Shown here piece by piece: positions 4,672 to 64,000 of a DNA stretch of 64,000 bases. Position 1 is the first letter of the stretch. Each line of letters starts with the position of its first letter. A program made the translations under genes and the position numbers. This DNA comes from Buxus sempervirens (lineage: Eukaryota; Streptophyta; Magnoliopsida; Buxales; Buxaceae): positions 12,746,221 to 12,810,220 of the forward strand of contig OX387192.1 in assembly GCA_947561395.2 (NCBI GenBank), read 5' to 3'. The notes beneath the pieces were generated by a model. That model saw only the letters and a program-made list of their open reading frames with translations. It had not been told where the DNA came from and did not search any database.

Positions 4672-4943
4672 TGTATCCGGCCAAATATGCCGGATACACT
4701 TGCTTCCCTTTATATCCGGACTTAAATGTCGGATACAATGATTTGCTCGGCGAGATTCGCGCGGATTCCCCGACAAATTCGCGGCGGCATTTTAATTTTC
4801 GAATGATTATGTTTTGTATCCGGCATTGAATACCGGATACAAAGGGACCTGTGTGTAGTCGGCCATGGAGGCCGGTTATGAAGAGGTCTTAGTGTATCCG
4901 GCCTGAGTTGCCGGATACATTAAGTTGGCCTATAAAGGCCAAC
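4672..4943 (+). promoter_or_regulatory. Palindrome cassette 1 and TATA box of element A LTR
   Basis: Successive dyads: TGTATCCGGC (4672-4681) / GCCGGATACA (4689-4698), TATCCG / CGGATA (4713-4735), TTTGTATCCGG / CCGGATACAAA (4813-4843), TAGTCGGCC-type (4856-4878), and TGTATCCGGC (4893-4902) / GCCGGATACA (4910-4919). The last dyad, GTTGGCC (4924-4930) / GGCCAAC (4937-4943), has TATAAA (4931-4936) as its whole loop. Loops of the best arms are 7 bases. The position just upstream of and around a TATA box suggests promoter-proximal binding sites. The 3' LTR carries the same set. Confidence 0.8.
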
Positions 4944-5220
4944 AGCAGCCCAGTTCCGGGGTTGGCTCCTTTTGGGTTGATTCCATCCTTTCTCCCTCAG
5001 ACCACCTGCTCCGAAACCCCTTCCTTTTGGCCTCCTTTGGCTCCCCAAACCCTCCAAGCCTTACTTCAAGGATCTCCCACTCTCTCTTCCCTTCTTCTTC
5101 TCCATTTCCTCACAAGCAAGAAGAAGGCCTGCTGCTCTTGGTGGCACAAGGAGAGGTTCCAGCCACTGGTGAGCTTCAAAGAAGAATCTCTACACCACAC
5201 AAAGGCTTCAAAGCCCCAAG

Positions 5221-5226
5221 GTATTG
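5221..5226 (+). other. Putative splice donor in element A LTR
   Basis: CCAAG|GTATTG lies about 290 bases after the TATA box. The same CCAAG|GT context occurs after the TATA box in LTR C (57882), LTR D (60434) and the reversed solo LTR (42378-42379, minus), although surrounding sequence differs. The matching acceptor may be the AG at 12311-12312 upstream of gag. Confidence 0.45.
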
Positions 5227-5954
5227 TTCCCCATTACTATTTACACCATATATATGAAAATGAGCCTCTAGCATGGTTCTTAGAAAAAGTATGCTCTCTT
5301 TTTTTTTTTTTTGTTGAGTTATTTTCTTGCATAATCCCCATGTATTTCCTTTCCATTGGTATCCCATGGAGTTCTCCAAGGTTAGAGGATTTATGGGTGT
5401 GGTTCCACCGGAGAGGGTGAGAGGTTTTCATCACCCTATCAAGTCATTTGAGCTGCTGGAATCTCTGTTTGGCCATGATTATCCTCTTATTTGATAGGGA
5501 GCATGTTCCCTCTCCCAACAATCTAATGTACCCCATGTTAAACCCCCCTCAATCCCTTCTTTAAATGGTTTTATTCGAATGATTTTGCATGTATGCTGAG
5601 CACGAAGTTAGTGATTTAATGCATGAGCTTAGGTTAGATAATCTAGGTCATGTATTTCATGCATATTCCTTGGAAAGTATGCTCCCCATCCCCTTTTGCT
5701 ATATCCCCTAGCTAATGTTATGGACAGCATGATATTGTCCTCTCTCTAGCACATGCACACATGCATGCCTTCACACACCATTGGAACCATGCATCTCCCT
5801 TCCTGGCTTTGTTGTAAAAATCTCAAAAGAGATTGAAATCAGGTGATTCCTCATCTCCAGAACCACTGTGGGCTCACATAGGAGCCCACACCACCCCTGG
5901 AACACCCCAAGGAGCCTAAGAATCCAAGCCCATAGCAAAAATCCGAAAAAATAG

Positions 5955-6069
5955 CTTCTGTAGGTTGATCCGGCAACTCAGGCCGGATCAACAGAAGCCC
6001 ACTTTTAGCCGGCAAAAGATGCCGGATACACCGAGACTTGTGTGTAACCGGCATCTCAGGCCGGCTACA
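5955..6069 (+). promoter_or_regulatory. Palindrome cassette 2 of element A LTR
   Basis: GTTGATCCGGC (5964-5974) pairs perfectly with GCCGGATCAAC (5982-5992) and is extended by CTTCTG / CAGAAG outside a bulge. It is followed by TAGCCGGCA / TGCCGGATA (6006-6028) and TGTAACCGGC / GCCGGCTACA (6043-6069, one mismatch). The words are those of cassette 1, about 1 kb upstream. One, CCGGCAACTCAGGCCGG, is the reverse complement of the 4898-4914 core. Confidence 0.78.
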
Positions 6070-7125
6070 CTGCCAGAATGTTGTTTTTACTGTTTTGTGA
6101 TTTTGTGCTATTTTGTTGGTTTAATTGATCAATCCCGACGAACCAGAAGGGTTTTCGGGTCACCCGGAAACCCAAGATGGGCCATGGACCGACCCGGTCC
6201 AACTTGATTCCCGGTGGGCCTTCCAACGGGGCCCACCAAGCTCGACAAACTCATTTTGTTAAATAAAGACAAAATCAATCTAGTTGAGTGGGCCACACCA
6301 TTGGAGGCCCGCCAAAGCCCACTTGTGAAGCATGTTGATCATATTTATGCATGGTTTGGCCGAGGCAAAGGGCAAGGCCTACCGGGCCCACCAAGCCCAT
6401 TAACCAACTAAGGTTAGTGTTTCAAAACCCTAACTCAAGAAGTCTTGGGCTTTCAAGGCCAAGCCCAGGTAAAAGGGCCCCAAGCCCAAGGCCTGGCCCA
6501 TTTTGGCACGGATAATCAAAGATAAATTAAATCATTTGGCAACCAATATTGGGGCCCACAAAGCAATCCAGACTCATTCTTTGCATGGAAATCAAATTTA
6601 ATCAAACTTGAATTTCAAAATAAAATCAAATCCATTTGAACCAAGCCCAAAGGGCCTCTCAGGCTAGACCAAGGCCCACCAAGGGACACGTGGGCTCAAC
6701 CAAGCCCACCAAGGAATCCGCGGGCCTTCCAACGAAGCCCGCCTAATCCGACTTACATTACTTTAACTAAAAAGACAAAATCAAGTAAAGGGACCCACAC
6801 CACTTTGGCAGTCCTGCCAGACTTAAACCAAATTTGAATGCTGGATTAGGAATCGGGTGAGTGAGAGACCAGAGTTGACTCAAACCAGGGAAACCTATGG
6901 GACCCGTCACTTGACGGGGTGGACTGGGGTGTCTATGGACTTCCCTAGACCGCAACCGAGAACCTACTTAGAATCTCAAGCCGCAGACCAAGCCATAATA
7001 GAAAAAACTTAGGCACCCAGGTGTCTGCCTGCACCCCATCAGGCAGTGGCGACTCCAAATAATCCCGAGGGATGCATCGTTTTGCGTGCACCTCATCGTG
7101 CGACCGAAATCGGGTGGGCACAGCC

Positions 7126-8142: not shown

Positions 8143-8428
8143 CAGGGGGTATCCGCCTACCTCGCGCTCACCGGCGTTCACCTCGGAGGTAGGCGCCCTG
8201 TTAAAAATGACTTACCACCGATCTCGCGCCCACCTCGCGCTTATCTCGCGCGAAGTGGAAAACAAGGCGCTCATCTCGCGCGAATCCCGCGCCCATCTCA
8301 CGCCCACCTCACGCCCATCTCGCGCTCACCTAGCGTCGGGTGAGCGGCAGGTCGTTTTTAACCGTTTTCTTCACCGCCGACCGGCGCCCACCTCGCGCCC
8401 ACCTCGATAGGTGAGCGGTAGACCTATT
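8143..8428 (+). promoter_or_regulatory. GC-rich palindrome cassette in solo LTR
   Basis: The header AGGGGGTATCCGCC is followed by CGCCTACCTC (8154-8163) / GAGGTAGGCG (8186-8195), a perfect 10-bp dyad. Repeated words CTCGCGCCCAC, CTCATCTCGCGCG and GGTGAGCGG then run to about 8428. The flanks align with 47868-48115 in the other chromovirus LTR, but the words differ. Confidence 0.7.
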
Positions 8429-16692: not shown

Positions 16693-19637
16693 TGTAAGCA
16701 CCTTATTTTTGCACCCCTGGAAGTGCTGAAATTGAAAACCCTAGCAGAAAAGTCAAACCCTGAGGGGTCAAAAATTGACTTTTTGATCAAGTGAAAATTG
16801 TCCACCTTGCTTTATCTCAACGGATAGAGAATCCCGACACGAATCCAATGCAACTGAGTTTGCTGGAATCGGAGTCCGGATGAAGGTTCGGTGGGCCGGT
16901 CAAACTTAAAGGAGAGCTGAAAGTCGACTTTTCCTCGAACCCCGTGCCAAGTGCTTAACCCTATGTCATTGAATAGAGGGCTCCGATACGAGTCTAACGC
17001 AATTGAGTTTGCTCAAATCGGACTTCGGATGAAGGAGATATGAGCTGTCGAAGTTTCCGCGCAGCAAAACCGGAAACTGCACACGTGGCGCAGGAACTAC
17101 CCACGTGGCAGCCAACGGAGCAAAATATCTCGGGGACTAAATCTTAAATATCCAAAAAATCTCAGGGACTGAACCAAAATTCGCAGGGGCAATCCGTAGA
17201 TATCCAAAAGTGTCAAATCGGTCGAGTCGGTCGAATCGGTCAAGTCGATGGGCAAATCCGTAATTTTTCGATTTGTATCCGGCCAAATATGCCGGATACA
17301 CTTGCTCCCCTTCATATCCGGACTTAAATGTCGGATACAATGATTTGCTCGGCGAGATTCGCGCGGATTCCCCGACAAATTCGCGGCGGCATTTTAATTT
17401 TCGAATGATTATGTTTTTTATCCGGCATTGAATACCGGATACAAAGGGACCTGTGTGTAGCCGGCCATGGAGGCCGGTTATGAAGAGGTCTTAGTGTATC
17501 CGGCCTGAGTTGCCGGATACATTAAGTTGGCCTATAAAGGCCAACAGCAGCCCAGTTCCGGGGTTGGCTCCTTTTGGGTTGATTCCATCCTTTCTCCCTC
17601 AGACCACCTGCTCCGAAACCCCTTCCTTTTGGCCTCCTTTGGCTCCCCAAACCCTCCAAGCCTTACTTCAAGGATCTCCCACTCTCTCTTCCCTTCTTTT
17701 TCTCCATTTCCTCACAAGCAAGAAGAAGGCCTGCTGCTCTTGGTGGCACAAGGAGAGGTTCCAGCCACTGGTGAGCTTCAAAGAAGAATCTCTACACCAC
17801 ACAAAGGCTTCAAAGCCCCAAGGTATTGTTCCCCATTACTATTTACACCATATATATGAAAATGAGCCTCTAGCATGGTTCTTAGAAAAAGTATGCTCTC
17901 TTTTTTTTTTTTTTTTGTTGAGTTATTTTCTTGCATAATCCCCATGTATTTCCTTTCCATTGGTATCCCATGGAGTTCTCCAAGGTTAGAGGATTTATGG
18001 GTGTGGTTCCACCGGAGAGGGTGAGAGGTTTTCATCACCCTATCAAGTCATTTGAGCTGCTGGAATCTCTGTTTGGCCATGATTATCCTCTTATTTGATA
18101 GGGAGCATGTTCCCTCTCCCAACAATCTAATGTACCCCATGTTAAACCCCCCTCAATCCCTTCTTTAAATGGTTTTATTCGAATGATTTTGCATGTATGC
18201 TGAGCACGAAGTTAGTGATTTAATGCATGAGCTTAGGTTAGATAATCTAGGTCATGTATTTCATGCATATTCCTTGGAAAGTATGCTCCCCATCCCCTTT
18301 TGCTATATCCCCTAGCTAATGTTATGGACAGCATGATATTGTCCTCTCTCTAGCACATGCACACATGCATGCCTTCACACACCATTGGAACCATGCATCT
18401 CCCTTCCTGGCTTTGTTGTAAAAATCTCAAAAGAGATTGAAATCAGGTGATTCCTCATCTCCAGAACCACTGTGGGCTCACACAGGAGCCCACACCACCC
18501 CTGGAACACCCCAAGGAGCCTAAGAATCCAAGCCCATAGCAAAAATCCGAAAAAATAGCTTCTGTAGGTTGATCCGGCAACTCAGGCCGGATCAACAGAA
18601 GCCCACTTTTAGCCGGCAAAAGATGCCGGATACACCGAGACTTGTGTGTAACCGGCATCTCAGGCCGGCTACACTGCCAGAATGTTGTTTTTACTGTTTT
18701 GTGATTTTGTGCTATTTTGTTGGTTTAATTGATCAATCCCGACGAACCAGAAGGGTTTTCGGGTCACCCGGAAACCCAAGATGGGCCATGGACCGACCCG
18801 GTCCAACTTGATTCCCGGTGGGCCTTCCAACGGGGCCCACCAAGCTCGACAAACTCATTTTGTTAAATAAAGACAAAATCAATCTAGTTGAGTGGGCCAC
18901 ACCATTGGAGGCCCGCCAAAGCCCACTTGTGAAGCATGTTGATCATATTTATGCATGGTTTGGCCGAGGCAAAGGGCAGGGCCTACCGGGCCCACCAAGC
19001 CCATTAACCAACTAAGGTTAGTGTTTCAAAACCCTAACTCAAGAAGTCTTGGGCTTTCAAGGCCAAGCCCAGGTAAAAGGGCCCCAAGCCCAAGGCTTGG
19101 CCCATTTTGGCACGGATAATCAAAGATAAATTAAATCATTTGGCAACCAATATTGAGGCCCACAAAGCAATCCAGACTCATTCTTTGCATGGAAATCAAA
19201 TTTAATCAAACTTGAATTTCAAAATAAAATCAAATCCATTTGAACCAAGCCCAAAGGGCCTCTCAGGCTAGACCAAGGCCCACCAAGGGACATGTGGGCT
19301 CAACCAAGCCCACACCACTTTGGCGGTCCCGCCAGACTTAAACCAAATTTGAATGCTGGATTAAGAATCGAGTGAGTGAGAGACCAGAGTTGACTCAAAC
19401 CAGGGAAACCTATGGGACCTGTCACTTGACGGGGTGGACTGGGGTGTCTATGGACTTCCCTAGACCGCAACCGAGAACCTACTTAGAATCTCAAGCCGCA
19501 GACCAAGCCATAATAGAAAAAACTTAGGCACCCAGGTGTCTGCCTGCACCCCATCAAGCAATGGCGACTCCAAATAATCCTGAGGCACGCATAGTTTTCT
19601 GTGCACCTCATCGTGCGACCGAAATCGGGTGCGCACA
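16693..19637 (+). repeat. 3' LTR of element A
   Basis: It runs from TGTAAGCACC to GTGCGCACA. It matches 4100-7122 with few substitutions, one extra ~10-bp GTCGAGTCGG-type unit near 17222, and an 89-bp deletion relative to the 5' LTR at the junction near 19308-19315. Both palindrome cassettes and the TATA-in-loop dyad are conserved. Confidence 0.95.
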
Positions 19638-19642
19638 CCTGG

Positions 19643-30599: not shown

Positions 30600-30727
30600 T
30601 GTAAGTGTGAAAACTCACACTCCTGTTATGGCAAATGATTGACAAATTAGGTTTCTAATAAAGCTTCAAGATGTACAGATTAAACAATGAAAATTCAGTA
30701 AATTCAGTAAAGAAGAAGAGTTGGTGC

Positions 30728-30953
30728 CACCACACTGCTACCACGCCGCTGCCACCCCGCTGGCAGCGCATAAGGAATTTCGTGTGTCAAAAGCAAGGAT
30801 CGTGCACCTGCCGCGTACTCTCCCGCTAGCAGCGCGCGTCTAACAGATTCAACTCACTCTGAGCGGGACATGAGTTCGCTACCAGCCGTCTACTTCGATC
30901 GCTTCACGACGCTACCAGCGCTCGATGCGATTTGTGTTTTATTCTTTAAATAG
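30728..30953 (+). promoter_or_regulatory. GC-rich cassette and TATA box in copia LTR
   Basis: CGCTGCCA (30747-30754) / TGGCAGCG (30761-30768) is a perfect 8-bp dyad. Words CCGCTAGCAGCG and CGCTACCAGC (twice) follow. The TATA-like TTTAAATAG is at 30945-30953. The word CCGCTGGCAGCG recurs ahead of the internal ORF2 promoter (35705-35715). Confidence 0.7.
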
Positions 30954-34853: not shown

Positions 34854-35690
34854 AAATCAGGTTCTGTTTTGAGTTAATTTTTATGTAAAATGTCTCACAT
34901 ATCTGTTCAAAATGAATTTGTGTGTTCTTATTACTAAGATCTGTTTTCAGGAAGATTGAGTGTATGCATATTGACAGAAATGTCTTATTTCTAACCAGCA
35001 ACTTTGTCTGAAACACCTGTACGTATTGAAGCTTATTGTGTGGTAAAGCTTGGGATCTATAGGCTATCACCTTTGTGAAAAGAAAAGTTTTGGAAATGGC
35101 TGCCATAGAGATTAGAGTGAAAGCCACTGTAAATCTCAAAAAGAAAAAGATAAAGAAGGTATATTCTTGGAATGAACTGTAAACTCAGGTTTTTTAAGGG
35201 TCAATGCCTTCTTTAAAAAGAAAAAGAGATCAGAAAAGGCTACCTATCTCAGATGTGCGAAAGCCACCAAAATGAAGTTGGGATATGTCTATACTTTTCA
35301 AGATTGTTTACACTGAAATAGTCTTCTATATGTATGAAGTGTAAAAGTCAAAAATGTTGCTCATTTCTCACAAGCATTGACTCATTAGTATGCATATGTT
35401 CTTAATATCTTGAAGAAAATTTATAGTATGAGAAACCATAAATGAAATTTTGCTCTTTGATATGAAATGTACCACATCTGAATTAACTCTGATAGGTACT
35501 TCAAGATCAGTTTTGTGCTAAGTACTTCTTAGATTGAATAAGTTGATTATCTGGATGATTTTTGGGTTTAGCTAAAATCTCAGCTTCGTGTTTAGAAGTA
35601 GGAGGATGTCATGAAAAATTGTTCAATCCTCTTTTATAAGTTTATGCGTTGAATCTGTAGTTTTTGTTGTTTGTGCATGTGCACCTTCTA
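34854..35690 (+). other. Copia spacer between pol and ORF2
   Basis: This is AT-rich DNA without a supported gene. It separates the RNase H end from the ORF2 promoter-like region. The short minus-strand ORF is not supported by any motif. Confidence 0.5.
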
Positions 35691-35866
35691 CGCCGCCAGT
35701 TGCCCGCTGGCAGCGTATTTGAGTTTGTCTATATATAGGTGAAAGTGAGCTATTTTTTTTACCCCTGTTTTTTTTTTACCCTCTTCGCTTTTCCCTCGCC
35801 TCTCGCGTCGTGTCCCGGTGCTGCTATCGCTGTCACTTTCTTCCTTCCTGTCTACTCTTCAGGTAA
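35691..35866 (+). promoter_or_regulatory. Internal promoter-like region of copia ORF2
   Basis: CGCCGCCAG / CTGGCAGCG (35691-35715, one mismatch, 7-base loop) lies 15 bases before CTATATATAGG (TATA at 35730-35737). A donor-like TTCAG|GTAAAC follows near 35862, and an acceptor-like TTTTCAG near 35964 lies before the ORF2 ATG. The palindrome word is the one used in this element's LTR. A dedicated promoter would let ORF2 be expressed apart from gag-pol. Confidence 0.55.
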
Positions 35867-36033
35867 ACATTTTTTTTACTATCTTCGTCCTGCTTCTCCA
35901 TTTTTCTGCTTCCTAGTTCTGTAGTTTTCTCTCTTTATTCGAAGCTAGGGTTTAGTGGTTTTCAGCCATTAGGGCTTTCTCATTGTGTTGTTTGGTGCTG
36001 TCTGTTTTCTCTTTCTCTTCCATTTCTTTTACC

Positions 36034-37365
36034 ATGCCTCTCAAGAGAAAGTCGAGAACTGATTCTCCTTCAACATCGTCTCCTCCTGTGAGGTCTCCTC
36101 CTGTGAAGTCTCCTCATGTGAGGTCTTCTCCTGTTATTCCTTCTCCTCCTGTGAGACCTCCTTCCCCTTCTCCTTCTTCTGAACCATTTGTGGGGAATGG
36201 TTTATCTGATTTCAATACCTTCTTCAAGCACAGGCCTCTTCTTATGGAAAGGGCCATCCAGCTTAACTCTTTTTCTGAAACCCCTTTCTACTCATTGTTT
36301 TCAGAAAATGGTTGGAAAAAATTTGCATTGCTTGGGGGTTTTGCTTATCCGAACCTGGTCCGTAAATTTTACTCTAATCTTCATCATCTTCATCTTGCCA
36401 GTCAAGGCTCTGTAAAAGCCTATGTCAGGGGAATTTCTTTCGACTTCTCGAAAGAGCTTATTTCCTCTCTGCTTGAACTACCTCTTGTTGACTCTCCCTC
36501 CTTTAACTTTCTTGAGTCTCATTCTGATCCTCCTATGGAGTCCATTATTCCGTCTCTAATAGTTGAGGGTGCTCCTTCTTCCATTAAGAACAAGCCCAAC
36601 TATTTGCCTCATGGCTCTCTTCAAGATCTTCTCTGGATCTTGAACTTGTTTGTCTGTGCTTCTCTTGTTCCTTCTGATCATCACTCCGAGATCTCTCACC
36701 ATAGGGCAAGACTTCTTCATGCCATCTGGAACAGAGAAAGTATTTGTATTCCTTCTATTATCTTTCATCAGATTCTTCAGTCTCGGAATTTAAAATCCAA
36801 GACTGCTGCTCTTCCTTTTGGAATTTTCATCTCGTACATGTGTGTTCATCAGGGGGTACTCCCTGATCCTACTGAATTGATTATGCATCCCCGTCCTCCC
36901 ATTGCTTCATCCACTCTGACCCGCAGTAAACGTGCAAGTCCTTTTCGGGTAATGTCCTCTGATCCCTCCTCTTCTCAGTCCTCTCTGTCCAGCCCTGATG
37001 CTGTGGCCATCATAGAGAAACTGAATTCAATGCAAGCTTCTCAGGAGGCTTTCTTTTCAGAGGTTAGGTCTCACATGCTCATGATGAGCATGTTCAAATC
37101 CGAAACCCAAGAGAAGCTGGGGCAATTGCTGAAGGATGTTGATTTCACTTGTGGAGAAGTTCAAAGGGACGTTGCTGCTCAGCAACGTATGCAAAATGAA
37201 GCGGGTCATTTTCTGGAATGCATTCGAAAGACTCAGCTGGAGATGGATCACAAGCTCTGCTGGCTGCACTCCAGATCTCAAGATGCCTACAAGCACTACT
37301 CACGGTCTTGGGAACCCAAACACCATCCAGAAAGGGGGAGAAATTTGGATGATGGTTCTGATTGA
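36034..37365 (+). CDS. Copia ORF2: accessory 'plant transposon protein'-like protein, 443 aa
   Basis: The best start is the ATG at 36034 (MPLKRKSRTDSPSTSS); upstream in-frame codons have no ATG. Residues ~1-50 are basic then Pro/Ser-rich with repeated PPVRS units. A globular domain (~55-300) contains VRKFYSNLHHL, YVRGISFDFSKELISSLL, ISHHRARLLHAIW, CIPSIIFHQIL and AALPFGIFISYMCVHQGVL. Residues ~325-420 look helical or coiled-coil (LNSMQASQEAFFSEV onward). The domain aligns with the antisense gene at 49882-51447 (R-x-FYSN, RG-x-SF, I-x-x-PS-x-I, ALP-x-G, IS). Both resemble a family annotated as putative plant transposon protein. SIRE elements often have an envelope-like ORF here, but I see no signal peptide or clear membrane segment. 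Frame fully open; function unknown. Confidence 0.8.
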   Translation: MPLKRKSRTDSPSTSSPPVRSPPVKSPHVRSSPVIPSPPVRPPSPSPSSEPFVGNGLSDFNTFFKHRPLLMERAIQLNSFSETPFYSLFSENGWKKFALLGGFAYPNLVRKFYSNLHHLHLASQGSVKAYVRGISFDFSKELISSLLELPLVDSPSFNFLESHSDPPMESIIPSLIVEGAPSSIKNKPNYLPHGSLQDLLWILNLFVCASLVPSDHHSEISHHRARLLHAIWNRESICIPSIIFHQILQSRNLKSKTAALPFGIFISYMCVHQGVLPDPTELIMHPRPPIASSTLTRSKRASPFRVMSSDPSSSQSSLSSPDAVAIIEKLNSMQASQEAFFSEVRSHMLMMSMFKSETQEKLGQLLKDVDFTCGEVQRDVAAQQRMQNEAGHFLECIRKTQLEMDHKLCWLHSRSQDAYKHYSRSWEPKHHPERGRNLDDGSD

Positions 37366-37870: not shown

Positions 37871-37881
37871 AAGGGGGAGAT
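37871..37881 (+). other. Polypurine tract of copia element
   Basis: AAGGGGGAGAT abuts the 3' LTR start at 37882. Confidence 0.92.
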
Positions 37882-38904: not shown

Positions 38905-38909
38905 GAGAG

Positions 38910-40215: not shown

Positions 40216-41746
40216 TTTGGAGATGATGAACAGTAAAACAAACAAAAAATAATAATAAAATAAAGAATACAATTGAAAAAAAAAAGAAAAAGAAAAGTAA
40301 CAATCGAATCTTGTTAGTCACTCAAATTTAAATATTTGTGCATATATTTCAATTATAGTCATTCCTTTCTTTGCATGTGTGTGTGGGGTCGGTCATTGAC
40401 TTTAATGGAATTTTTTTTTTATATATTGTTTATTTCAAGTGCCTATTTATATTGTTTATTTCATGTGTAGGGTCGGCCATTGTTTTTGTGCGCGCCTGAC
40501 TTCGGTTGCGTCACACTGGGTAAAAATGGGAAATTGGAGTCACCACCGCCTGATGAGGTGCAGGCGGACACCTGGGTGCCTAGATTTCCTATTAGACTGG
40601 TCTGCGGCTTAGAGATTCTAAGTAAGTTCTCGGTTGCGGTCTAGGGAAGTCCGTAGACACCCCAGTCCACCCCGTTAAATGACGGGTCCCATAGGTTTCC
40701 CTGGTTTGAGTCAACTTTGGTCTCTCACTCACCCGATTCCTATTCCAGCATTCAATTTGGTTAGGTCTTGCGGGACCGCCAAAGCGATGTGGGTCCCTTT
40801 ACTTGATTTTATATTCTTAGCTTGAGGTGAAATGGGTCTGATTGGGTGGACCCCATTGGAGGGCCCACGGGTTCCTTGATGGGCCAAGTGTGGTTCACAT
40901 GTTCCTTGGTGGGCCAAGTATGGCCCTTTGGACTTTGGTTCAATTTGACTTGATTTTATTTTGAAGTTCAAGTTGGGTTATTAAGTAATTTTCATGTAAA
41001 TGTGGGTCAGTTTGGTTCATGGGCCCATTGGGTGGGCCACACATGGAAGCCAAGTAATTTATTTAGATTTATCTTGATTAAGTTTCAAAAATGGGTCAGG
41101 CCTTGGGCTTGGGGCCCTTTACCTGGGTTTGGGCTTGAAAGCCCAAGACTTCCGGGGTTAGGGTTTTGAAACCCTAACCTTGCTTGGTGTTGTGGGCCTA
41201 GTGGGCCCGACAGGCCCTGCCCCTGGGTCTTGGCCAAACCACAACCTAATTTAAGCATGCATGCCCCACATAGGGCTTGGGTGGGCCTCAAGTGGTCTAG
41301 TCCACTCAAATCTTTTAATTATCTTAGTTAAGCAAAATTGAATGGTTCGGGCTGGGTGGGCCCCGTTGGAAGGCCCACTGGAAATCAAGTTAGATGGGGT
41401 GGTCTGGGTCCCATGTTGGGTTTCTGGGCGACCCGGAAACCCTACTGGTTTGCTTTGGTTTAGTTTGAGAGTGTCACTCACATGCAGCAGAAATCACAAA
41501 ATATACAAAAATCACAAAATACACAAAACATACGAAAATCACATCATTTGGGTCCAAGGGAAGGGACCTAGGGCCCCTGTGGGCGGAGCCCATGGGGCGA
41601 GGTCCCTCCCTGTGCCAAGGAACGAGTTGGACGCGCAGCGAACAATAGGGTTGGGGGTGCGGGGGGCTTCGCCCCCCGCAGTATTGTACAAGGGTATTTT
41701 CATATTTTAAAAAATATAAGCAATTCGGCCTTTTAAAGGGGTGCGT

Positions 41747-41905
41747 TGATCTCCGGGCGCTGGGCGCGAGGTCAGCGCGAGCCCGGCGGACTGAAGACGG
41801 CAAAAGAAAGGCACCCGCGCGCGCTAGGCCCTAGCCAGGAGGACCGAAAAGGCCCTTGCGTGCACGCAATAAGCGCGAGCCTCGCGCGAGCTCGGCGGAC
41901 ACCCT
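41747..41905 (-). promoter_or_regulatory. Palindrome cassette 2 of reversed Tat solo LTR
   Basis: Dense GCGC words (GGGCGCGAGGTCAGCGCGAG), GCTAGG-C-CCTAGC, and CGAGCCTCGCGCGAGCTCG. It sits beyond the donor-like site, as in the other Tat LTRs. Confidence 0.6.
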
Positions 41906-42713
41906 GCCCAAACTCGCTTCTCTGTTTTCTTGCTCAAACTCCATCAACGTCTGGTTTTTAACCTCTGTAACAGGTTTCTGGCAATCCTTAGACTCCCAGA
42001 AGACCTTTAATCATGCATCTAAATTAATGTAAGCTACTTCGAATCACGATTAAAAAAGGAAAACCGACAACTGCCCACACAAATACACACAAAAAGACAC
42101 CCAGAACGAGCACCGAAGTGGTCTTGCACTCACCACCCGTGACCTCTGGCAGGGCCGAACCTGGGCTCTGTGCTCAAGACCAGAGCCTCTAAAGAAGGGA
42201 AGGAGAATGGGGGGTTTATATAGGGGTACAACAGATGTTTCTCAATAGAGGGAACATGATCCCCACTTCCAAATCAAAACCAATAACAGCAAACAACTAA
42301 AGCCATTAGATCATGCTCAAAATACCATGCTTGGGCCTATTTTTATTCATGCTAGAGGATGAGTTGCGGGGAACATTACCTTGGGTTAACAAACCCTAAC
42401 AGGATGTGTTGAGCTCCTTGAGCACAAACGAATGCCAGAGCAGCGCCTCGCCTCACCAACAGTAACCTCATCGTCCTCTCAGTTGTGAGGCAACAGAAGG
42501 GAAGAAGGGGGTTTCGACTCGGGCGAAGTGGGGGAAGGCCAACTCTCTGTGGGAAGAGCCAACCCCAGAGAACACCACCGAAGGGAGTGAGAACTCTCTC
42601 TGCCCAGGGAAGAACTTTGCAAGAGAAGAAAGCCAGCCAAGAAAAATCCCGAACCCAAAAACAGCCCACCCTTGAACACGAATGAGGCTGCTGTATTTAT
42701 AGAGGAAATTCGG

Positions 42714-42775
42714 GGTATCCGCCGGGCTTGGCGCTGAGCTCACGCGGAGCGGCTGTCGCTCGGTGCGAGCGACAC
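42714..42775 (-). promoter_or_regulatory. Palindrome cassette 1 of reversed Tat solo LTR
   Basis: TGTCGCTCG (42754-42762) pairs perfectly with CGAGCGACA (42766-42774), loop GTG. Next to it on the plus strand is GGGGTATCCGCCGGGCTTGG, nearly the same as 47868-47880 in the chromovirus LTR. Confidence 0.7.
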
Positions 42776-45214: not shown

Positions 45215-45319
45215 CTTAGTAAAATAAAAAAAGAGGAAACAAGTTAGTATAAAGAATTCATATTACATTAAGATATAATACATGTCAACATAGATTATTT
45301 GTGATCTTTTTGATTTCCA

Positions 45320-46140: not shown

Positions 46141-47139
46141 TGTTCTTGATTAGGATGAAGTTGGTTAAGGCACAGAGAATTGTTTTTGCCAAGCTTGATG
46201 CACATTCAAAGGCAATTTTGATCTTGAATTTTTTGTGTAGTTTTTTAGAATGATTTAATCAAGCATGCTTATGTGAATGATCTTGAAGTGTGTGCACTTG
46301 ATGCATGAAAAGATATACATGATTAAAGCAAAGGTTAAAGGATATTACCATTCGGCAAACTTGTGTCAACAAATGAATGTCAAAAGCACATCAAAGAAGT
46401 GTGTGCACAATCCTAAAAAAGGTTGGTGTCCCGTGGGGCACGACTCCTAGACATACTTGTGTACGAAAGCACGTCTGAGTCCTGATCAACCCTTTGTCTT
46501 TCATCTGGTCTTGGTGTCGGACCACAGCAAAAATTACAACTTGCCATCGAAGGCGAAATTTACATATTATTTACACAATCTACAAAATATTTGCCTTTAT
46601 GGTTGTCGCGAGCCCAAAAGGAGGGTACAAATTTGCTTCAAGGCAGGTAGGCTAAATTCCTAGACCTAGGGTTTTATGCCCCTATTCTGATTTGGCCCGC
46701 TTCTGTCTGACCGTCTGATCTAGCCAGCTTTCATCTGCTCAAAAGGCCAATTTGGACTCAGGGTGCTCCCAGAGGACTCAATGGGTCAAGGCCAACGGCT
46801 CACGAGACTCAGTGCATGGATCTGGGGTGGCTCCCTTGATCAAACTTTGGTTAGCTTCCTAAATTAGGGCTGAGGTAGCCCATGATCTAGGGTTTACTCA
46901 GTTTGATGCAAAAAGACGGGGAATGCTGCCCCTGATGGACTCTTGGGTTTTGAATTGATTTTACTTTTATTATTTCCAGCATTCACATTCACATCCACAA
47001 AATCCTAGTTTATTCAGAAACGGTAAGTGGGAAAAGGGTACTCAACCCAAGACATTCGCCTACAAGGGTCTAAGCCAAGTACTAGACCCTCGCGTACAAC
47101 GGTAAGAAACTAGTGGCGCTAAGGAATCCCGAAACCTGG
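46141..47139 (-). other. Element R leader
   Basis: This untranslated leader is homologous in reverse complement to 9760-11200 of element A. No gene seen. It continues on the far side of chromovirus B at 55443-56019. Confidence 0.7.
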
Positions 47140-47867: not shown

Positions 47868-48115
47868 ATCCGCCGGGTTGGCGCCTACCTAGCGCCAACT
47901 AGTTTGGTCGGCGCAAGTATTAAAATGAGTTACCTCCGAGCTCGCACCTATCTCGCGCCGAGCGGTTTAGTTAAGCGCGAGATGATTTTTCCTTACCGCT
48001 AAGCTCGCGCCTAGCTCTCACCTAGTGTATTTTGACTTAGCGCGACGTGTAGATTTTAGGATTGAGTTCTCACCGACCTCACGCCAAGTGCCAGAGGTCA
48101 GCACATCCCCTAATA
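47868..48115 (+). promoter_or_regulatory. GC-rich palindrome cassette in chromovirus LTR
   Basis: The header GGGGTATCCGCC is followed by GTTGGCGC (47877-47884) / GCGCCAAC (47892-47899), a perfect dyad with a 7-base loop. Further on is GACCTC (48075-48080) / GAGGTC (48094-48099), then CCCCTAA and TTTGCCGAAA. The last part matches Tat LTR C at 58326-58385. Confidence 0.75.
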
Positions 48116-49881: not shown

Positions 49882-51447
49882 TCAGCTAGAAGGTCCTGCA
49901 TCGTCCCCTCCATCACCAGTGCTCTCTCTTGCACCAACGTCACCATCTCCAGCCCCAGCTGCACTAGCTCCATCACCGTCCACTCCAGCTCCACCATCAT
50001 CACCTCCTCTAGGTCCCCTGTCACTAGAATCATCATTCGCAGCAGCCTCAAAACTAGATATGTCGTCGTCCAGGAAACACTACAAGAATCGGCGGTGGGT
50101 GGCATGCATAAACTGTACATGTCCCCGCAGGGTCGATATAGCCCATAACATCTCCACCTGGGTCTGCCGTATCGACGTCTGAACCCTCGACATCTCATCA
50201 ATACGCTGCTGCGTTGCTGTCTAAGCTCCCGACATCTCGCCCATGTGCCTCACCGTGTGGATCATGTGATGGCCCAGTGCCTTCACTATTTCCTGGAGTG
50301 TCCTCACCTCACCTGTCAAGGTAGTAACGACAGCAGAAATACCCTCAATAGTGGAGGGAGGAGGGTCAGAAGAAGGAGCAAGAGGAGCATTGAAAGAAGG
50401 GGGAACAGAAGAGGATGGGAGGTCAGTGAAAGAGGGAAAATAAGAAGAAGACGGGAAGTCAGTGAAGGATGGAAAGGAAGAAGAAGAAGGAATATTAGTA
50501 GAAGGTGGTAGAGCAGAAGCAGAGGGAATATCAGTAGAAAAGGAAAGAGATGAAGAAGATGGCATAACAGGTAAAGGGGGAGCAGCCACAGGAGTAGGAA
50601 GGGAAGTCGAAGGAACAGAGGGACAAGGCACAGCAGCAATGTCAGCAGCCCTCCTACCACGGGTGATACTCGTGGTGACTCTGCAAATAGGCTGACTAGG
50701 AGTCAAGGCAATGAAACTAGGATACACCACTGGGGAAGCAGAAATGAGCCTAGATATTAGACAACCGTAGGGTAAAGCCACCGATCGCCTACGATCATCA
50801 TAAACTCCAAGCATAACAGAGATGATCAGCGAAGGAAGGTCAATGGAATCACCCCTCCGTATGGCGTAAAGGAACAGTGAACGAGAGCTGGGAAGAGTAG
50901 AAAAATGAGAAACATGCCAAAGATCAGTAAAGACAATCCTCGAAAGAATATAGGTGTCAGCAGAGAATCTTGAGGTATGGAGAGGACCCACTCCAGTGTA
51001 CTCTATCGCCTGACTCGTAAGAACTGTGGCGACAGCAGAATAGTCGGGCATGGTCTCACTGGAGTAGGGATAGACTGGGTGCTCCACCCTAAGAATACGA
51101 AGGCTGGCAGCTATGAAGTCAAGGCAAATCAGAAAACTGGTACCTCTCATATGAACATGGAAGGAGGTATGATCGGGAGAGATGTCATAGATATTACTGT
51201 AAAACTCCCGCACTTGCTCCTTGCAAGTGGGAGTGAAGCCCTGAAAAATGGGTAGCCAACCACGGACTCAAAAAATATCCTCTATAGAAGGGGCAAAGTC
51301 CTCAAACCTAACCTCCCTCTCAACTAGAACAGCTCAACGCTGCAGATATCTCTCATATATCTCCCTCTCCTTGTCTGAAAGAAATCTATCATCTCTAGGT
51401 GCAACCCTAGCCCTCTTAGAGGGATTCCCGGAAGAGGTCCTAGTCAT
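49882..51447 (-). pseudogene. Antisense accessory gene of chromovirus element (~520 codons, four stops)
   Basis: The minus-strand ATG at 51447 gives MTRTSSGNPSKRARVAPRDD and lies directly after a splice-acceptor AG. Stops at 51334-51336 and 51268-51270 (both TGA, from CGA) and 50221-50223 and 50080-50082 (both TAG, from CAG) are the only breaks, and all remain in one frame. The globular part shows VREFYSNIYDI, MRGTSF, LPSSRSLFLYAIRRGDSIDLPSLI and SVALPYGCLISRLISASPVV. It aligns with copia ORF2 along the same core. A Ser/Pro-rich middle (about 50640-50350), a helical segment, and an acidic Gly/Asp-rich tail ending GPSS follow. This resembles the family annotated as putative plant transposon protein. 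The function is unknown. Confidence 0.8.
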
Positions 51448-55437: not shown

Positions 55438-55442
55438 GGAGA

Positions 55443-57454: not shown

Positions 57455-57547
57455 ATTCGGTCGCTCGTGCGAATGTGGCAGGGGGTATGCGCTCACCTTG
57501 AGCTGGGCGCCAAGGTGAGCGGCACCCCATTTCCCTTGCCTATATAA
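57455..57547 (+). promoter_or_regulatory. Palindrome cassette 1 and TATA box of LTR C
   Basis: CGCTCACCTTG (57490-57500) pairs perfectly over 11 bp with CAAGGTGAGCG (57511-57521), loop 10. It is bounded by GGGGGTATG and CACCCC. TATATAA is at 57541-57547. Confidence 0.82.
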
Positions 57548-58254: not shown

Positions 58255-58385
58255 GAGCATCGAGGGTCCGCCGAGTTCGCGCGAGCACTTTTCGCGCTTC
58301 GCGGGTTTTTTGGTCCGCCCGGCCCGCGCCGACCTCGCGCCTAGTGCCCGAGGTCGGCGCATACCCCTAAAAGCCTGCCGAAATG
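58255..58385 (+). promoter_or_regulatory. Palindrome cassette 2 of LTR C
   Basis: GCGCCGACCTCG (58326-58337) pairs perfectly over 12 bp with CGAGGTCGGCGC (58349-58360), loop 11. It is followed by ATACCCCTAAAAGCC and TGCCGAAA. It closely matches the chromovirus LTR at 48071-48115. Confidence 0.8.
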
Positions 58386-59934
58386 CTGTATTTTTGAAAA
58401 TTTCCGAAAATGCCCTTTAATGTACCGCGGGGGGCTTCGCCCACAGGGCCCCCGGGTACCTCCCCTTGGACCCAGCACAATGAGCCAATTTTTTCTTGAT
58501 AGAGTGTCAATCTTGTGTATTTTCTTAGGTGATTATTGCTGAATGTGGGTTTTATTTCCAAACCGAACCGGATGAACCAATAGGGTTTCCAAGTCACCCG
58601 GAAACCCAACATGGGGCTTGGACCCTTGGTCCAACTTGGTTTCCAGTGGGCCTTCCAACGGGGCCCACCAAGCCCGACCAATTCATTTTGCTTAACTAAG
58701 ATAATAAAAGATTTGAGTGGGCCAGACCACTTGAGGCCCACCCAAGCCCTAATTGGGCCATGCATGATTAAAGTAAGATATGGTTTGGCCGAGACCACGG
58801 GTAGGGCCTATCGGGCCCACTAAGCCCATGAACCCGACCAACTTAGGGTTTCCAAACCCTAATTCAGGAAGCCTTGGGCTTTCAAGCCCAAGCCCAGGTA
58901 AAGGGCCCCAAGCCCAGTACTTGGCCCGTTTTGGCATAGATAAGAAAGATAAAATCAAAATCACTTGGCAACCAAATGTGGGGCCCACTCAAGGGCCCAC
59001 AAAGCAATCCCGGCCCACTTTTTGGCATGAAATCCACTTAACTAAATCAACTTGAACTTCAAAAGAAAATCAATTCAAATTGAACCAAAGTCCAAAGGGC
59101 CACACTTGGCCCACCAAGGAAGGGATACCGTGGGCCTTCCAACGGGGCCCACCCAACCAGGCTCAGATCATCTTAATTAAAAAGATAAAATCAAGTAAAG
59201 GGACCCACACCACTTTGGCGGTCCCGCCAGGCTTAATCAAAATTGCATGCTGGAATAGGAATCGGGTGAGTGAGAGACCAAGGTTGACTCAAACCAAGGA
59301 AACCTATGGGACCCGTCACTTGACGGGGTGGACTGGGGTGTCTACGGACTTCCCCAGATTGCAACCGAGTCCCTACTTAGAATCTCAAAGCCGCAGACCA
59401 AAAGCCTTAGTAGAAGAACTTAGGCACCCAGGTGTCTGCCTGCACCCCATCAGGCAGTGGCGACTCCAAACAAACCCCGAGGCACGCGTCCTTACGCGTG
59501 CGCCTCGTTGTGCGACCGAAATCGGGTGCGCACACCCAAGGCTTTGCAAGATAGGGTCTCTTGAGTTTCTAGGGGTTGTGTGGGCCCCTGTGTGGGCCCA
59601 CGATGGTTCGGGAATGAGGGGGAAGCCTCATGTGGCCATTCGGGTGGGTTTCTTTGGAATCCAAGGGAGAGGGACTAAGGCTTGGGGCCTTGTCCCCCTC
59701 TTGAGTTAAACTCAATGGGATAACAAGGACCATGAGTGTCCCTATTATGGTGTTGCAAGCATCTCTCTTCCTTCCACGAGGAAAAGGAGGAGAGTGGCCC
59801 GGATGGCCTATGCTTGGGTTCGATTGGCCAAACCAAGCACACAAACATACACAAAGAAATAACTCATGAAGATAAGTAATTAAGATTCAAGACATGCTAT
59901 AAAGCAAAGACTAAAAGTGTGGTGTATGCACACA

Positions 59935-60160
59935 AGTGTAACCAAAATATAATTTCGGTTCTAAGGATAAGGCCCCCAGATTACACTGACAGATTTTCTG
60001 ACATTATCTCTTAAAAAATGATTTATAATTTGATGTGTTTGTAACCGAAATTATATTCTAGTTACAAACAACTTTAGTATAAACGAAATTATATTTCGAT
60101 TATACTCAATTTTAGTGTAACCGAAATATAATTTCAGTGACATTAATTTTGGCTATATAA
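59935..60160 (+). promoter_or_regulatory. Palindrome cassette 1 and TATA box of LTR D
   Basis: Four imperfect dyads: ACCAAAATATAATTTCGGT (near 59940), TGTAAC / GTTACA around CGAAATTATATTCTA (near 60040), AAACGAAATTATATTTCG (near 60083) and ACCGAAATATAATTTCAGT (near 60120). TATATAA is at 60154. Confidence 0.72.
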
Positions 60161-61396
60161 GGGCTCCAGCAACTCATTTTGAGGGGTTGGTTGATTTTGG
60201 CTTGCTCCAACCCCTCTACCCTACTCGTCCCTCTCTCTTACACCCCTCCTCCACTCTCCAAGCACTCAAACCCCATCCAAACCCTTCCAAATCACTTCCC
60301 AACCACTTCTTCTTCAACTTTAACCAAGGGAGAAGCTTGGGAATCACCTTGGAAGCTCAAGAGGAGGACCCCACCTGTTGTCTAGGCTTCAAAGGAACTC
60401 CAAGGTACATCAAGGAAGCTCTCCCACCCCAAGGTAAGCTTCCTAAACTTCATTTGTACAATATACATGAATTTGGAATCAATATGGGCATGTTCTTCAT
60501 GGTTTGCTGTTTTATCTCATTCTAGCTTGTTTTCCATCTTCTTTTCTTCATCTTCTTCTTTATTTCCTCAATAAAGAAGGACTCTCATGGTAAGGAGAGA
60601 TGAATAGGCCGAATGGGAGGAGTTGAGAGGCCACTTGAGGGCTAGGCCACATTCAAGTTCATGTCCTTATGTATTTTCATGATATATTAATTGAAAGGAG
60701 AGCATGTTCTCCCCTCCCTCTTTCAATCTCATGTATCCCTTAAACCCCCCAATCCCCTTCTTTTATTTGCTTTTAAGTTTCCCTCAAGCATGCTCTAGTT
60801 GCTATTATATCATGAGATAAGGTTAGATAAGCTTCTAGGATTGCATGTTTAGGCTTTATCCCTTTTTTTTAAGCTCTCTTCTTATTATCCCTCACAACCA
60901 CACCAGGGTGGCACATGCATGCCATTCACCACCCCCAAGCCATGCATGTTTAGTTCCTTTACTATTAGTATTGTCATCATGCACACCACACACATTTGTA
61001 CCATTTTACAGCATGTCCTAAGTCCCCCTTAGGTTGTCTTTGAGCACTTTCGTTTACTTGTTTGAGCATGTTTCATGGTTTGGCCATAAGGACCAAGGCT
61101 TGGACCATCTGGGTCACCTCCTCTCTTCTCCTCATATGAGAGGGGAGGATGCCTTCAATACCAAAGTAGGGATAGTTAAGGTCCCTATTTAAACCCTTGA
61201 GTTTCAACTCAATGAGGGGGGAAAAGGCCCCAAGCCTAAGCCCCCCTCCCTTTGATCCAAAAAAAAGTAATGAAACGAGCCAAATTTGTCTCATCCTCTC
61301 AATCACAAACCACAGTGGGCCCACACAATCCCTGGTTATCCCCAAGAACCATGGAACCCAAGCCCTAATAAAAAATTTGCAAAAATAGTTTTTATA

Positions 61397-61505
61397 AGCT
61401 TGACCGAAAACATAGTTCGGTCAAGCTATATTTTCTCCATAACCAAAATTATATTTCAGGCATGCCTTTTTTTTTAGCATGATCGAAATATAATTTCAGT
61501 CATGA
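61397..61505 (+). promoter_or_regulatory. Palindrome cassette 2 of LTR D
   Basis: AGCTTGACCGAA (61397-61408) pairs perfectly over 12 bp with TTCGGTCAAGCT (61416-61427), loop 7. It is followed by AACCAAAATTATATTTCAGG and a GCATGATCGAAATATAATTT-type dyad. The words match cassette 1 of the same LTR. Confidence 0.8.
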
Positions 61506-62187
61506 ACAAATCAGCAGAAAAATCCCAAAAATGCTTTTTTGCCTCTTTTGATCATTTTAATTATCTTTTAATAAAACCAAACAAAGCCAACAAGGTTTTG
61601 AGTCGACCCATGACCCAACATGGGCCTTGGGCCCAATGGACCCAAATTGAGTATACATGGCCCTTCCAACGAGGCCCACCCATTCCAAACCAAATAAACC
61701 AAAACCGAAAGGGGTTATCCAACGTAACCCCAAACGAGACTTAGTCTTTGTCTAAAGCCTAACTTGGCATCCGATGGGCCTCCCAACGGGGCCCACACTC
61801 CAGACCCATGTCGCTTGATCTAAAAAGATAAAATCCAAATAAAGGGACCTACACCAAACATGTGGTCCCACCAAAACCCAATCAAAGAAGCATGTTGGCA
61901 TAGGATGGGTGAATTGAATCAAATCAAACTTAACCAGGGATAACCCATGGGACCCGTCACCCGATGGGGCGGACCGGAGTGTCCATGGACTTCCCCGAAC
62001 CGTAACCGGGCACTTAAACAAAATCTCAAAGCCGCAAACCACCTTATAGAAAACCTTTTAGGCATCCATGTGTCTGCCTGCACCCCATCAGGTGGTGGCG
62101 ACTCCCATCCCCCATTTTCTCCCGAAGGAGATTCCCAGCCATCAATAAGACGTGCAGCCCGCGGATCTAATGCGCGCACACATATAT

Positions 62188-62519
62188 TATAGGAAACTCA
62201 ATGATGCCACTCGAAAAGATCACTTCCCATTACCTTTCATTGACCAAATGTTGGAGCGCCTTGCAGGTCATGCATATTACTGCTTTCTAGATGGTTATTC
62301 ATGATATAATCAAATCCCTATAACACCGGAAGACCAAGAGAAAACCACCTTCACATGTCCCTATGGCACTTTTGCATATAGGAGGATGCTATTTGGACTA
62401 TGCAATGCACCGGCTACTTTTTAGCAATGCATGATGGCAATCTTTTTTGACATGGTGTAGAAATTTATGGAAATTTTTATGGACGATTTCTCTGTTTTTG
62501 GTTTTTCTTTTGATGCTTG
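62188..62519 (+). pseudogene. Athila-type RT fragment
   Basis: Translation from 62188 gives YRKLNDATRKDHFPLPFID, MLERLAGHAYYCFLDGYS, ITPEDQEKTTFTCPYG, MLFGLCNAPATF and FMDDFSVFG, which includes the F-x-DD catalytic motif. Three in-frame stops are present. The fit is to Athila-lineage Ty3/gypsy RT rather than the Tat RT at 21652. Both ends are cut by Tat LTRs. Confidence 0.88.
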
Positions 62520-64000
62520 TGTGCGCACCTGATTTCGGTCGCACGACGAGGCACATGCAAAACGATGCATGCCTCGAGATTGTTTGGAGTAGCCACTGCC
62601 TGATGGGGTGCAGGCAGACACCTGGGTGCCTAAGTTTGTCTATTAAGGCTTGGTTTGCGGCTAGAGATTCTAAGCAAGTTCTCGGTTACGGTTCAGGGAA
62701 GTCCGTAGACACCCCAGTCCGCCCCATCGAGTGACGGGTACCATAGGTTTCCCTGGTTTGAGTCAACTTTGGTCTCTCACTCACCCGGTTCCTATTCCAG
62801 CATGCACATTTGGTTAAGTCTGGCGGGACCGTCAAAGTGGTGTGGGTCCCTTTACTTGATTTTATCTTTTTTAGCTTAAAGTGAGATGAGTCTGCGTGGG
62901 CGGGCCCTGTTGGAAGGCCCGCGGGTTCCTTGGTGGACTAAAACCAGCCCATATCTCCCTTGGTGGGCCTCAGACTAACCTGAGAGGCCCTTTGGGCTTT
63001 GGTTCAAGTGAATTTGACTTCATTTTTAAGGTTCAAGTTGAGAATTATATAGCTTTCATGCCAAGTGGGCCGGGATTGCTTTGTGGGCCCTTGGGTGGGC
63101 CACACAATGGTTTGCCAAGTGATTTTGTGTTATCTTGATTAATTATACCAAAGCGGGCCAGGCATTGGGCTTGGAGCCCTTTATCTAGGCTTGGGCTTGA
63201 AAGCCCAAGGCTTCTTGAGTTAGGGTTTGGAAACCCTAACCTTGGTTGGGTTCAATGGGCTTAATGGGCCCAACAAGCCCTGCCCGTGGTCTCGGCCAAA
63301 CCAAGCCTAAATCTAATCATCATGCTTCCAAAATGGGCCTCAAGTGGGTTCGGCCCACTCAATAAATTTAATTGCCTTTATTTAACAAAATGGGTTTGTT
63401 GGGTTTGGTAGGCCCCGTTGGAAGGTCTACTAGAAATCAAATTGGACCGGGTCAATCCATGGCCCATCTTGGGTCTTCGGTTGACCCGGAAACCCTACTG
63501 GTCTACTTGGTTTAGCTAAAAGGATTGCAAAAATGAGTTAACGAGCTGAAAATCAACAAAATGGAGCCTCTGTACTATAGCCGACCTGAGTTGTCGGCTA
63601 CACACAGAGAAGCCTGTATCCAACCTTAAGCATCGGATACACACAGAGACACCTGTATCCGATCCGGTTTGTCGGTGACAAAAGAAACTCTACTAATCCG
63701 ACCTGAGTTGTCGAATCTGCTAAAAGATGCCATTTTTTGGATCTCTACAATGGGCTTGGGTTTATGGGCTTCTTGGGGTGTTCTAGCAGTGGTGTGGGCC
63801 CCTGTGTGGGCCTACATTGGTTCAGGGAATGAAGGAGCATGCTTTTTGGTCTCTTTTGGGGGTCTCCATAACAAGAAAGAAGAAAAGGTATAGGAAAATG
63901 CTTTCTCCCCCCTTGCACCTCATGCAATGGCTAAACAGGGACCATGTCGTCCCTGTTTTGGTCTAGCAAATCACACCAAACAGCAAGCTGAAGACCATCA
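62520..64000 (-). mobile_element. Reversed Tat-type LTR E, runs off the window
   Basis: The minus-strand LTR end TGTGCGCACC starts at 62520. The conserved terminal block and the CCGACCTGAGTTGTCGG-type palindromes follow. The LTR start and any TSD are beyond 64000, so solo or complete status is unknown. Confidence 0.82.
63583..63722 (-). promoter_or_regulatory. Palindrome cassette of LTR E
   Basis: TAGCCGAC / GTCGGCTA (63583-63604, loop CTGAGTT), TGTATCC / GGATACA (63616-63641), TGTATCCGA / TCGGTGACA (63655-63679), and a fourth diverged copy near 63696. The first has the same loop as element A's 4893-4919 dyad, but with an A-T pair where A has G-C. Confidence 0.75.

Follow-up and report, generated by a model that had tools for sequence, protein, structure and literature searches.

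Phased CCG-N11-CGG palindromes beside the TATA boxes of presumed Ty3/Tat long terminal repeats in Buxus sempervirens

Why should long terminal repeats (LTRs) of one plant genome carry clusters of short palindromes around the TATA box, spelled differently from one LTR to another? The question was raised by a 64-kb window of Buxus sempervirens DNA (G000:C15:12746221-12810220), which self-comparison shows to be a nest of plant LTR retrotransposons. The palindromes prove genuine, with more order to them than the initial annotation of this stretch had recognized. In the LTRs that we take to be of Ty3/Tat type, the basic unit is a CCG-N11-CGG dyad (N11, 11 bases of any kind) repeated every 39 bp, or every 28 bp in some families. 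The last dyad lies about 23 bp before the TATA box, and a second array follows 0.9-1.5 kb downstream, beyond a donor-like site. The neighboring bases vary on this constant frame (TATCCGGC, TAACCGAAAT, CCGAC, CCCGTAC, and CCGCACA). The feature is most likely cis-regulatory, and the sequence suggests that a paired DNA-binding protein probably docks at the dyads.

A palindromic frame phased with the TATA box

Element A, which sits inside another element, has two 3-kb LTRs; self-comparison and alignments identify C, D, E, and G as LTRs related to it. LTR limits were derived from alignments.

4100..7125, forward strand: 5' LTR of element A, 3.0 kb, followed by the primer-binding site (PBS) TGGCGACTCCACTGGGGAC
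4671..4920, forward strand: A cassette 1, five dyads centered at 4685, 4724, 4828, 4867, and 4906
4931..4937, forward strand: TATA box of LTR A
5216..5222, forward strand: CCAAG/GT donor-like site of LTR A, a putative splice donor by sequence likeness
5964..6070, forward strand: A cassette 2, three intact dyads centered at 5978, 6017, and 6056, 39-bp period
16693..19637, forward strand: 3' LTR of element A, cassettes at ~17273-17522 and 18568-18674, 8/8 cores intact
~59860-62118: LTR D, limits by alignment
60037..60143, forward strand: D cassette 1, three dyads with the TAACCGAAAT word in 38/39-bp steps, cores decayed; a fourth near 59950
61398..61504, forward strand: D cassette 2, three dyads (over 61392-61508), 39-bp period, the first intact
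62519 to past the window end, reverse strand: LTR G, a reversed solo LTR with its promoter side outside the window
63574..63721, reverse strand: G cassette 2, four dyads, 39-bp period, CCGAC/GTCGG-like word, two intact

The dyads of A cassette 1 are spaced 39, 104, 39, and 39 bp apart, with the last center 24 bp before the TATA box, and cassette 2 starts about 1.07 kb on from this promoter array. Seven of the eight dyads are intact in the 5' copy, where the fourth (4867) has TCG instead of the CCG found in the 3' copy, and all eight are intact in the latter. D is mostly decayed, with both CCG cores preserved in only one of its six phased dyads; its TATA box, at ~60153, lies about 24 bp beyond the last of them. 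The layout first proposed, with one cluster by the TATA box and another past the CCAAG/GT site, is therefore complete in A (five and three dyads), eroded in D, and partial in G, of which the window holds only the downstream array.

Flanking sequence (TTAGTGTA ahead, ACATTAA and TTGGC behind) allows the final promoter dyad of A to be aligned with that of D, and 10 of the 17 bases of core and interior differ between the two (TATCCGGC versus TAACCGAAAT). Homologous positions thus carry different words. LTRs that align elsewhere had been described as having unrelated words, which is correct for A and D as far as the words go; the frame beneath, CCG-N11-CGG, is shared by A, D, G, a family that we call M, and locus L069.

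A scan for inverted repeats with arms of 8 or more, one mismatch tolerated, and a loop of 3-16 gives 154 in the window against 52-70 in five shuffles, both A copies and the tandem repeats included. There are 25 CCG-N11-CGG sites, compared with 1-13 for other spacings, and 17 of the 25 lie in the two A LTRs. We also counted symmetric 30-bp windows (10/15 pairs) over each whole LTR and in 30 shuffles of it. A has 15 (5.7 shuffled), 9 of them within cassettes; D has 17 (5.3), 8 within cassettes; C has 12 (5.3, maximum 11), 3 within cassettes; and E has 7 (5.6). Judging by where these windows fall, A and D are the only LTRs with a cassette-based excess. In the window, the strength of N11 sits in the A LTRs; it is the genome-wide results that carry the case.

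Genome-wide counts cover 676.5 Mb in 247 contigs. The A word, TATCCGGC...GCCGGATA with 0-10 spacer bases, has 7595 sites and its reversed control none; the D word, ACCGAAAT...ATTTCGGT with 0-11 spacer bases, has 1339 sites and its reversed control 2. Among the first 50 sites listed for each word, the spacer is always 7 for A and always 3 for D, both of which amount to N11. Neighboring A-word sites less than 2 kb apart, among those listed, are separated by 39, 78, 117, or 142 bp, with one pair at 712. Exact A/D chimeric dyads, counted as exact half-words with near-variants left out, occur twice in the genome, with spacers of 0 and 2 and neither at N11, against 7 and 11 in the reversed controls; hence, the two words mix within a dyad no more than expected by chance. 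The spacing is also prevalent in loci chosen without regard to word. In 35 word-independent loci (L037-L071, 95 kb), we found 65 distinct CCG-N11-CGG sites compared with 2-32 for other spacings, most commonly 39 (16), 78 (9), 143 (7), or 28 (5) bp apart. The CCG spacing is 11 both where the stem extends inwards (D) and where it does not (A), and the frame is common to A, K, D-word, G-like, M, and L069 LTRs.

The distance to the TATA box is likewise near constant. Loci were selected by the A word (L005-L024), by the D word, mostly for two matches 1.3-1.5 kb apart (L029-L036), or by similarity to the unique 5' region of the LTR (U5; L037-L071, except L058, which continues window LTR G). Dyad filters were not uniform across analyses, and distances are one base higher in the scan of the 35 word-independent loci. 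The TATA box lies 23-24 bp past the last dyad center in four A-word loci of the A family; in L007, where the core of the last dyad is broken, it lies at 62. Five of the eight D-word loci have it at 23-24 bp, and in the other three, TATA matches lack a dyad within 60 bp. Among the 12 loci with A-like U5, promoter dyads occur in six, with TATA at 23-24 bp in five and no TATA match in L040. In L065, one of ten G-like-U5 loci, the words of both cassettes are of CCGAC type, and TATA is at 23 bp. Family M (in L061) repeats the plan of A (two dyads, gap, three dyads, TATA) with a period of 28 instead of 39: its dyads are at 740, 768, 878, 906, and 934, and the TATA box is 24 bp on. Lastly, L069, one of three D-like-U5 loci, has CCGCACA...TGTGCGG dyads at 28-bp intervals, with TATA at 22 bp and a dyad of the same word downstream. 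The constant distance in the A and D families, part of whose loci were picked by word, supports the earlier suggestion that cassettes are not placed at random relative to the TATA box.

Palindromic repeats also occur away from these LTRs. A 106-bp tandem repeat at 419-736 (three copies) has GGTGAGC...GCTCACC-like palindromes, and its third unit contains CCGACAGACAGAGTCGG, a CCG-N11-CGG site. Internal tandem repeats of A (11401-12014) and E (45285-46141) carry GGAAA...TTTCC-type dyads with periods of ~27 and ~35 bp, respectively.

Words shared within and between LTRs

We then asked whether the two cassettes of one LTR agree, scoring the four bases inside the CCG core wherever two phased clusters lay 0.7-1.7 kb apart. 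Mean agreement over 17 loci was 2.709 out of 4, against 2.097 ± 0.147 for shuffled partners; none of 5000 shuffles matched the observed value, and 10 did when the four D-word LTRs were left out. Words are thus more alike within than between LTRs, as had been proposed, in a set that is partly word-picked: the 17 include A1, the four D-word LTRs (most picked for two D hits), and five A-word loci. In L039, the two cassettes differ (CCGAC before TATA, CCGGC for the most part downstream), as they partly do in L032. Co-inheritance alone could explain the agreement, since the LTRs are related, some were chosen by word, and both cassettes lie on a stretch of ~1.4 kb. L046 (G000:C11:19726608-19729578, reverse strand) illustrates joint inheritance of such a module: its U5 is 93% identical to that of A, both of its cassettes are of C type, and by sequence it appears to be a swap of the promoter-leader module.

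The idea that each family has its own word proved too strong. The unrelated families A and K share one word, and at the threshold used, the K LTR aligns with A only at the dyads and short flanks. The LTRs C and E, in turn, share cassette sequence with chromoviruses. The features concerned, together with those of the copia element, are as follows.

56712 to ~59534: LTR C, solo, with CCCAA at either flank
57490..57521, forward strand: C cassette 1, CGCTCACCTTG-N10-CAAGGTGAGCG, ~20 bp before TATA (57540)
58326..58360, forward strand: C cassette 2, GCGCCGACCTCGCGC palindrome, aligning with chromovirus LTR sequence
40523-43372, reverse strand: LTR E, limits by alignment
42708..42773, reverse strand: E cassette 1, chromovirus cassette sequence in inverted orientation
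41653..41903, reverse strand: E cassette 2, GCGC-rich
47877..48105, forward strand: GCGCC-rich cluster of H1; those of H2 at ~53870-54100 and B at ~8150-8420 (B, H1, and H2 are chromovirus-like LTRs)
30592-31621 and 37874-38904: LTRs of the copia element
30744..30925, forward strand: repeated word CGCTRGCAGCG of the copia LTR, before TATA-like TTTAAATAG
35689..35717, forward strand: palindrome in the promoter of copia open reading frame 2 (ORF2), TATA-like box at ~35729
35956..37365, forward strand: copia ORF2, Transposase_32 (PF20167)
50221..51267, reverse strand: antisense ORF in a chromovirus, Transposase_32 (PF20167)

Aligned with H1, C cassette 2 scores 56 (maximum of 200 shuffles, 27), and E cassette 1, in inverted orientation, scores 39 (maximum of the shuffles, 24), indicating that cassette sequence is shared between lineages and orientations. 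Of 45 such cassette-target comparisons, 10 had no more than 4 of 200 shuffles as good, and A, D, G, and the antisense gene figure in none of these 10. Among nine loci with C-type U5, the C word before TATA is kept in four (L049, L050, L052, and L055) and in part in L051; L052 has an additional palindrome beside it, the palindrome of L054 is L046-like, and two loci (L053 and L057) are not readable. In the ninth, L056, a palindrome GGGTACGCGCtgaGCGCGTACCC ~15 bases before TATA is unrelated to the GCTCACCTTG of other C copies.

Cassettes had been ascribed to every LTR family in the window, chromoviruses included. B, H1, and H2 have 7, 7, and 4 symmetric windows against 4.2-4.6 shuffled, without excess, so this extension is unsupported by our measure. 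For the antisense gene, said to repeat the two-position layout, the count is borderline (8 versus 3.7 shuffled, maximum 8). The promoter of copia ORF2, for which a cluster was described, has the motif CCCGCTGGCAGCG[CT]AT in common with the copia LTR, each time upstream of a TATA-like box; neither shows an excess of symmetric windows (copia LTR, 2 versus 1.3; upstream of ORF2, 1 versus 2.0). The copia element itself is flanked on both sides by one tandem array (30290-30599 and 38905-39117), the left side of which has a 75-bp unit in 4.1 copies with 96% matches.

What may read the dyads

On the sequence evidence, we consider it rather likely that the cassettes function as operator arrays, read by a dimeric DNA-binding regulator with drifting flank specificity. 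Each dyad would be a putative site for a homodimer reading one CCG per half-site, 14 bp apart, with 2-4 bases next to CCG also being read and differing by lineage. Arrays of up to five such sites, at a near-constant TATA distance within a family and often repeated downstream in the leader, may act as promoter or intron enhancers of Tat-type LTRs, or as anti-silencing seeds.

Palindromes may instead be selected for folding of the LTR transcript or DNA, as RNA or cruciform hairpins serving, for example, packaging, small-RNA production, or processing, while the words drift, pairing alone being what counts. We examined this in 103 phased dyads (88 unique once oriented) that were picked by CCG-N11-CGG and spacing, not by symmetry. 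Complementarity extends from about -9 to +4 and then ends. The outer variable bases covary within dyads, with 769 pairs against 674.7 ± 12.3 in within-locus shuffles (0/1000); this is as expected of hairpins and counts against a dimer, since a short protein contact does not require such pairing. Palindromes of Sirevirus LTRs, moreover, are reported as small-RNA hotspots in the accessible text of PMC5311732 and PMC10760457. Yet complementarity at the inner bases +5 and +7 falls below that of shuffles, the CCG spacing stays at N11 despite varying stem length, and the CCG core is retained across N11 families. Wobble pairing was considered as support for RNA hairpins and rejected: G.T mismatches (96; shuffles, 106) are no commoner relative to A.C (75; shuffles, 88), and because both are similarly reduced, there is no sign that one RNA strand pairs. 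Cassette 1 also lies upstream of the TATA box and would enter RNA only from the 3' LTR. Finally, the periods of 39 and 28 bp differ by 11 bp, about one helical turn, which would suit phasing on the DNA helix. The constant frame over differing stem lengths and this shift in period favor a DNA-binding dimer, and hairpins seem to us an improbable explanation.

The arrays may also be a mutational by-product of tandem duplication, template switching during reverse transcription, and gene conversion, with little function. Such processes would yield tandem arrays, common words, and covarying outer bases, and both cassettes appear to have moved together in L046. They do not predict the constant CCG-N11-CGG frame, nor the 22-24 bp to TATA in A, D, G-like, M, and L069 LTRs, nor the retention of CpG. 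In this regard, the CpG observed/expected ratio is 1.0-1.2 in the cassettes of A, C, D, and E and 0.24-0.59 in the remainder of those LTRs, which hints that the sites may be shielded from methylation or kept by selection. We give this explanation little credence.

The reader of the dyads could be encoded by the elements themselves. An accessory protein comparable to VANC, perhaps Transposase_32, would bind the family word, relieve silencing, and coevolve with it. Two different retroelements of the window bear Transposase_32 ORFs, and the copia LTR and ORF2 promoter have a common word. VANC motifs, too, lie upstream and in introns, change together, and differ between families (PMC5735166, accessible text). 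Against this, we found no Transposase_32 ORF in any Tat-type element, among window ORFs of at least 200 amino acids plus 8 of the 22 shorter ORFs of A and E; the LTR families A and K have one word; and VANC21 motifs are in one orientation, with "palindrom" absent from the accessible text of PMC5735166. We hold this explanation to be unlikely.

The two Transposase_32 ORFs are accessory genes of unrelated retroelements, one sense and one antisense, with 27% identity over the aligned part. A search for homologs of copia ORF2 gave 4748 candidates, none of them significant. In sunflower, an Athila element bears an accessory ORF that resembles Transposase_32 and is predicted to have a nuclear signal (PMC11728184, accessible text). 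Such accessory ORFs make an element-encoded regulator conceivable.

Returning to the dimeric regulator, several observations weigh against it in addition to the covariation described above. The LTR copies are related, and hence site counts are not independent. Outside the A LTRs, N11 is unremarkable in the window (8 sites versus 1-9 for other spacings), and the shuffle excess of G (8 symmetric windows versus 2.5) is located outside its cassette, which has none. The C and E cassettes are GCGC-rich and off the CCG-N11-CGG frame. In family K, the array, with up to four dyads at 39 bp, lies farther upstream, 150-218 bp from TATA, and its LTRs showed no second one. In only 7 of the 35 word-independent loci is a TATA match preceded, at no more than 60 bp, by a symmetric N11 dyad, in six of them at the usual distance; the seventh is L069, whose last dyad was removed by the filter. 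Similarly, only 17 of 34 LTR loci had two scorable arrays. These low yields may be due in part to cut or broken fragments and to C-type LTRs.

If a dimeric regulator does bind a fixed CCG-N11-CGG with evolvable flanks, Ty3/Tat elements might possess a lineage-specific recognition code, a notion that we regard as tentative and, on balance, doubtful. Operators in the promoter and leader intron would be re-spelled in concert, producing groups that do not cross-react, and module swaps such as those of C/E with chromoviruses or in L046 would change the group in one step. A host transcription factor, for example of the LOB-domain kind, may be a candidate reader, for which the literature search gave no usable motif. 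Insertion-target palindromes were considered and rejected, as those span 5-6 nucleotides at target sites (PMC6911290, accessible text).

Relation to known systems

Palindromic regulatory boxes are already known in copia Sireviruses, the closest precedent. According to the accessible text of Bousios 2010 (PMC2829016), the Sirevirus repeated motifs (RMs) are palindromic, with a CGG-CCG core in all but one element, and occur upstream of TATA in 8 to 32 copies, forming CpG islands, with extra copies ahead of ENV; they are Sirevirus-specific and absent from the classic copia elements compared there. As far as that text goes, the arrays described here resemble RMs in their palindromic dyads, CGG/CCG core, multiple copies clustered upstream of TATA, word that varies by element, and CpG-island character. 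The extra copies before ENV match the layout of the window copia ORF2, and the Citrus RM AATCCGGCTWRCCGGATT resembles word A. Unlike RMs, our arrays belong to Ty3/Tat-type LTRs, keep a constant N11 (RM spacers vary) with 39/28-bp phasing, and include another array past the TATA box; their homologous sites also differ in word.

The arrays behave like RM boxes, yet we do not class them as Sirevirus RMs because of the gag and the PBS. Element A encodes PF03732 Retrotrans_gag, whereas the window copia gag is the copia-type PF14223; the enclosing element has RVT_1 and RNase H pieces (Pfam scan). The PBS TGGCGACTCYRCTGGGGAC follows the A and K LTRs. We presume that PF03732 with this PBS denotes Ty3/Tat, and the label for A, C, D, E, G, and K is likewise our assumption from common LTR ends and the PBS. 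The gag, at 12732-13268, was the sole Pfam match among 8 ORFs scanned of 22 (at least 90 amino acids) in the internal regions of A and E, and element A is perhaps non-autonomous, with gag alone.

Tat elements such as Ogre and Retand have hypervariable tandem repeats in their 3' untranslated region. These are similar to our arrays in being tandem repeats of Tat elements and differ in being internal rather than in the LTR promoter and leader. In maize, palindromes in the LTR cis-region of Sireviruses are reported to evolve rapidly (Bousios 2016, as cited in later papers), in copia elements and not in Ty3/Tat, and maize Ty3 elements are generally without an obvious structure peak (PMC10760457, accessible text). 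The closest functional analogy is that of the VANC motifs of VANDAL elements, short and family-specific tandem repeats of upstream regions and introns whose units change together through tandem repeat formation (PMC5735166, accessible text). VANDALs are DNA transposons with a known encoded protein and motifs of a single orientation, in contrast to our units, each of which is a dyad; by this analogy, anti-silencing is a possible role.

In the literature searched, with most subscription papers outside its reach, we found no description of palindrome arrays in Ty3/Tat elements. As far as that search goes, the Ty3/Tat setting, the invariant N11, the 39/28-bp phasing, the downstream array, and the different words at homologous sites are new. 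By analogy, the arrays would be the Ty3/Tat counterpart of the Sirevirus repeated motifs, and these stricter, phased palindromes, found at two positions in Ty3/Tat-type LTRs and spelled in several lineage-specific ways on a single frame, suggest a control logic shared across plant LTR elements.

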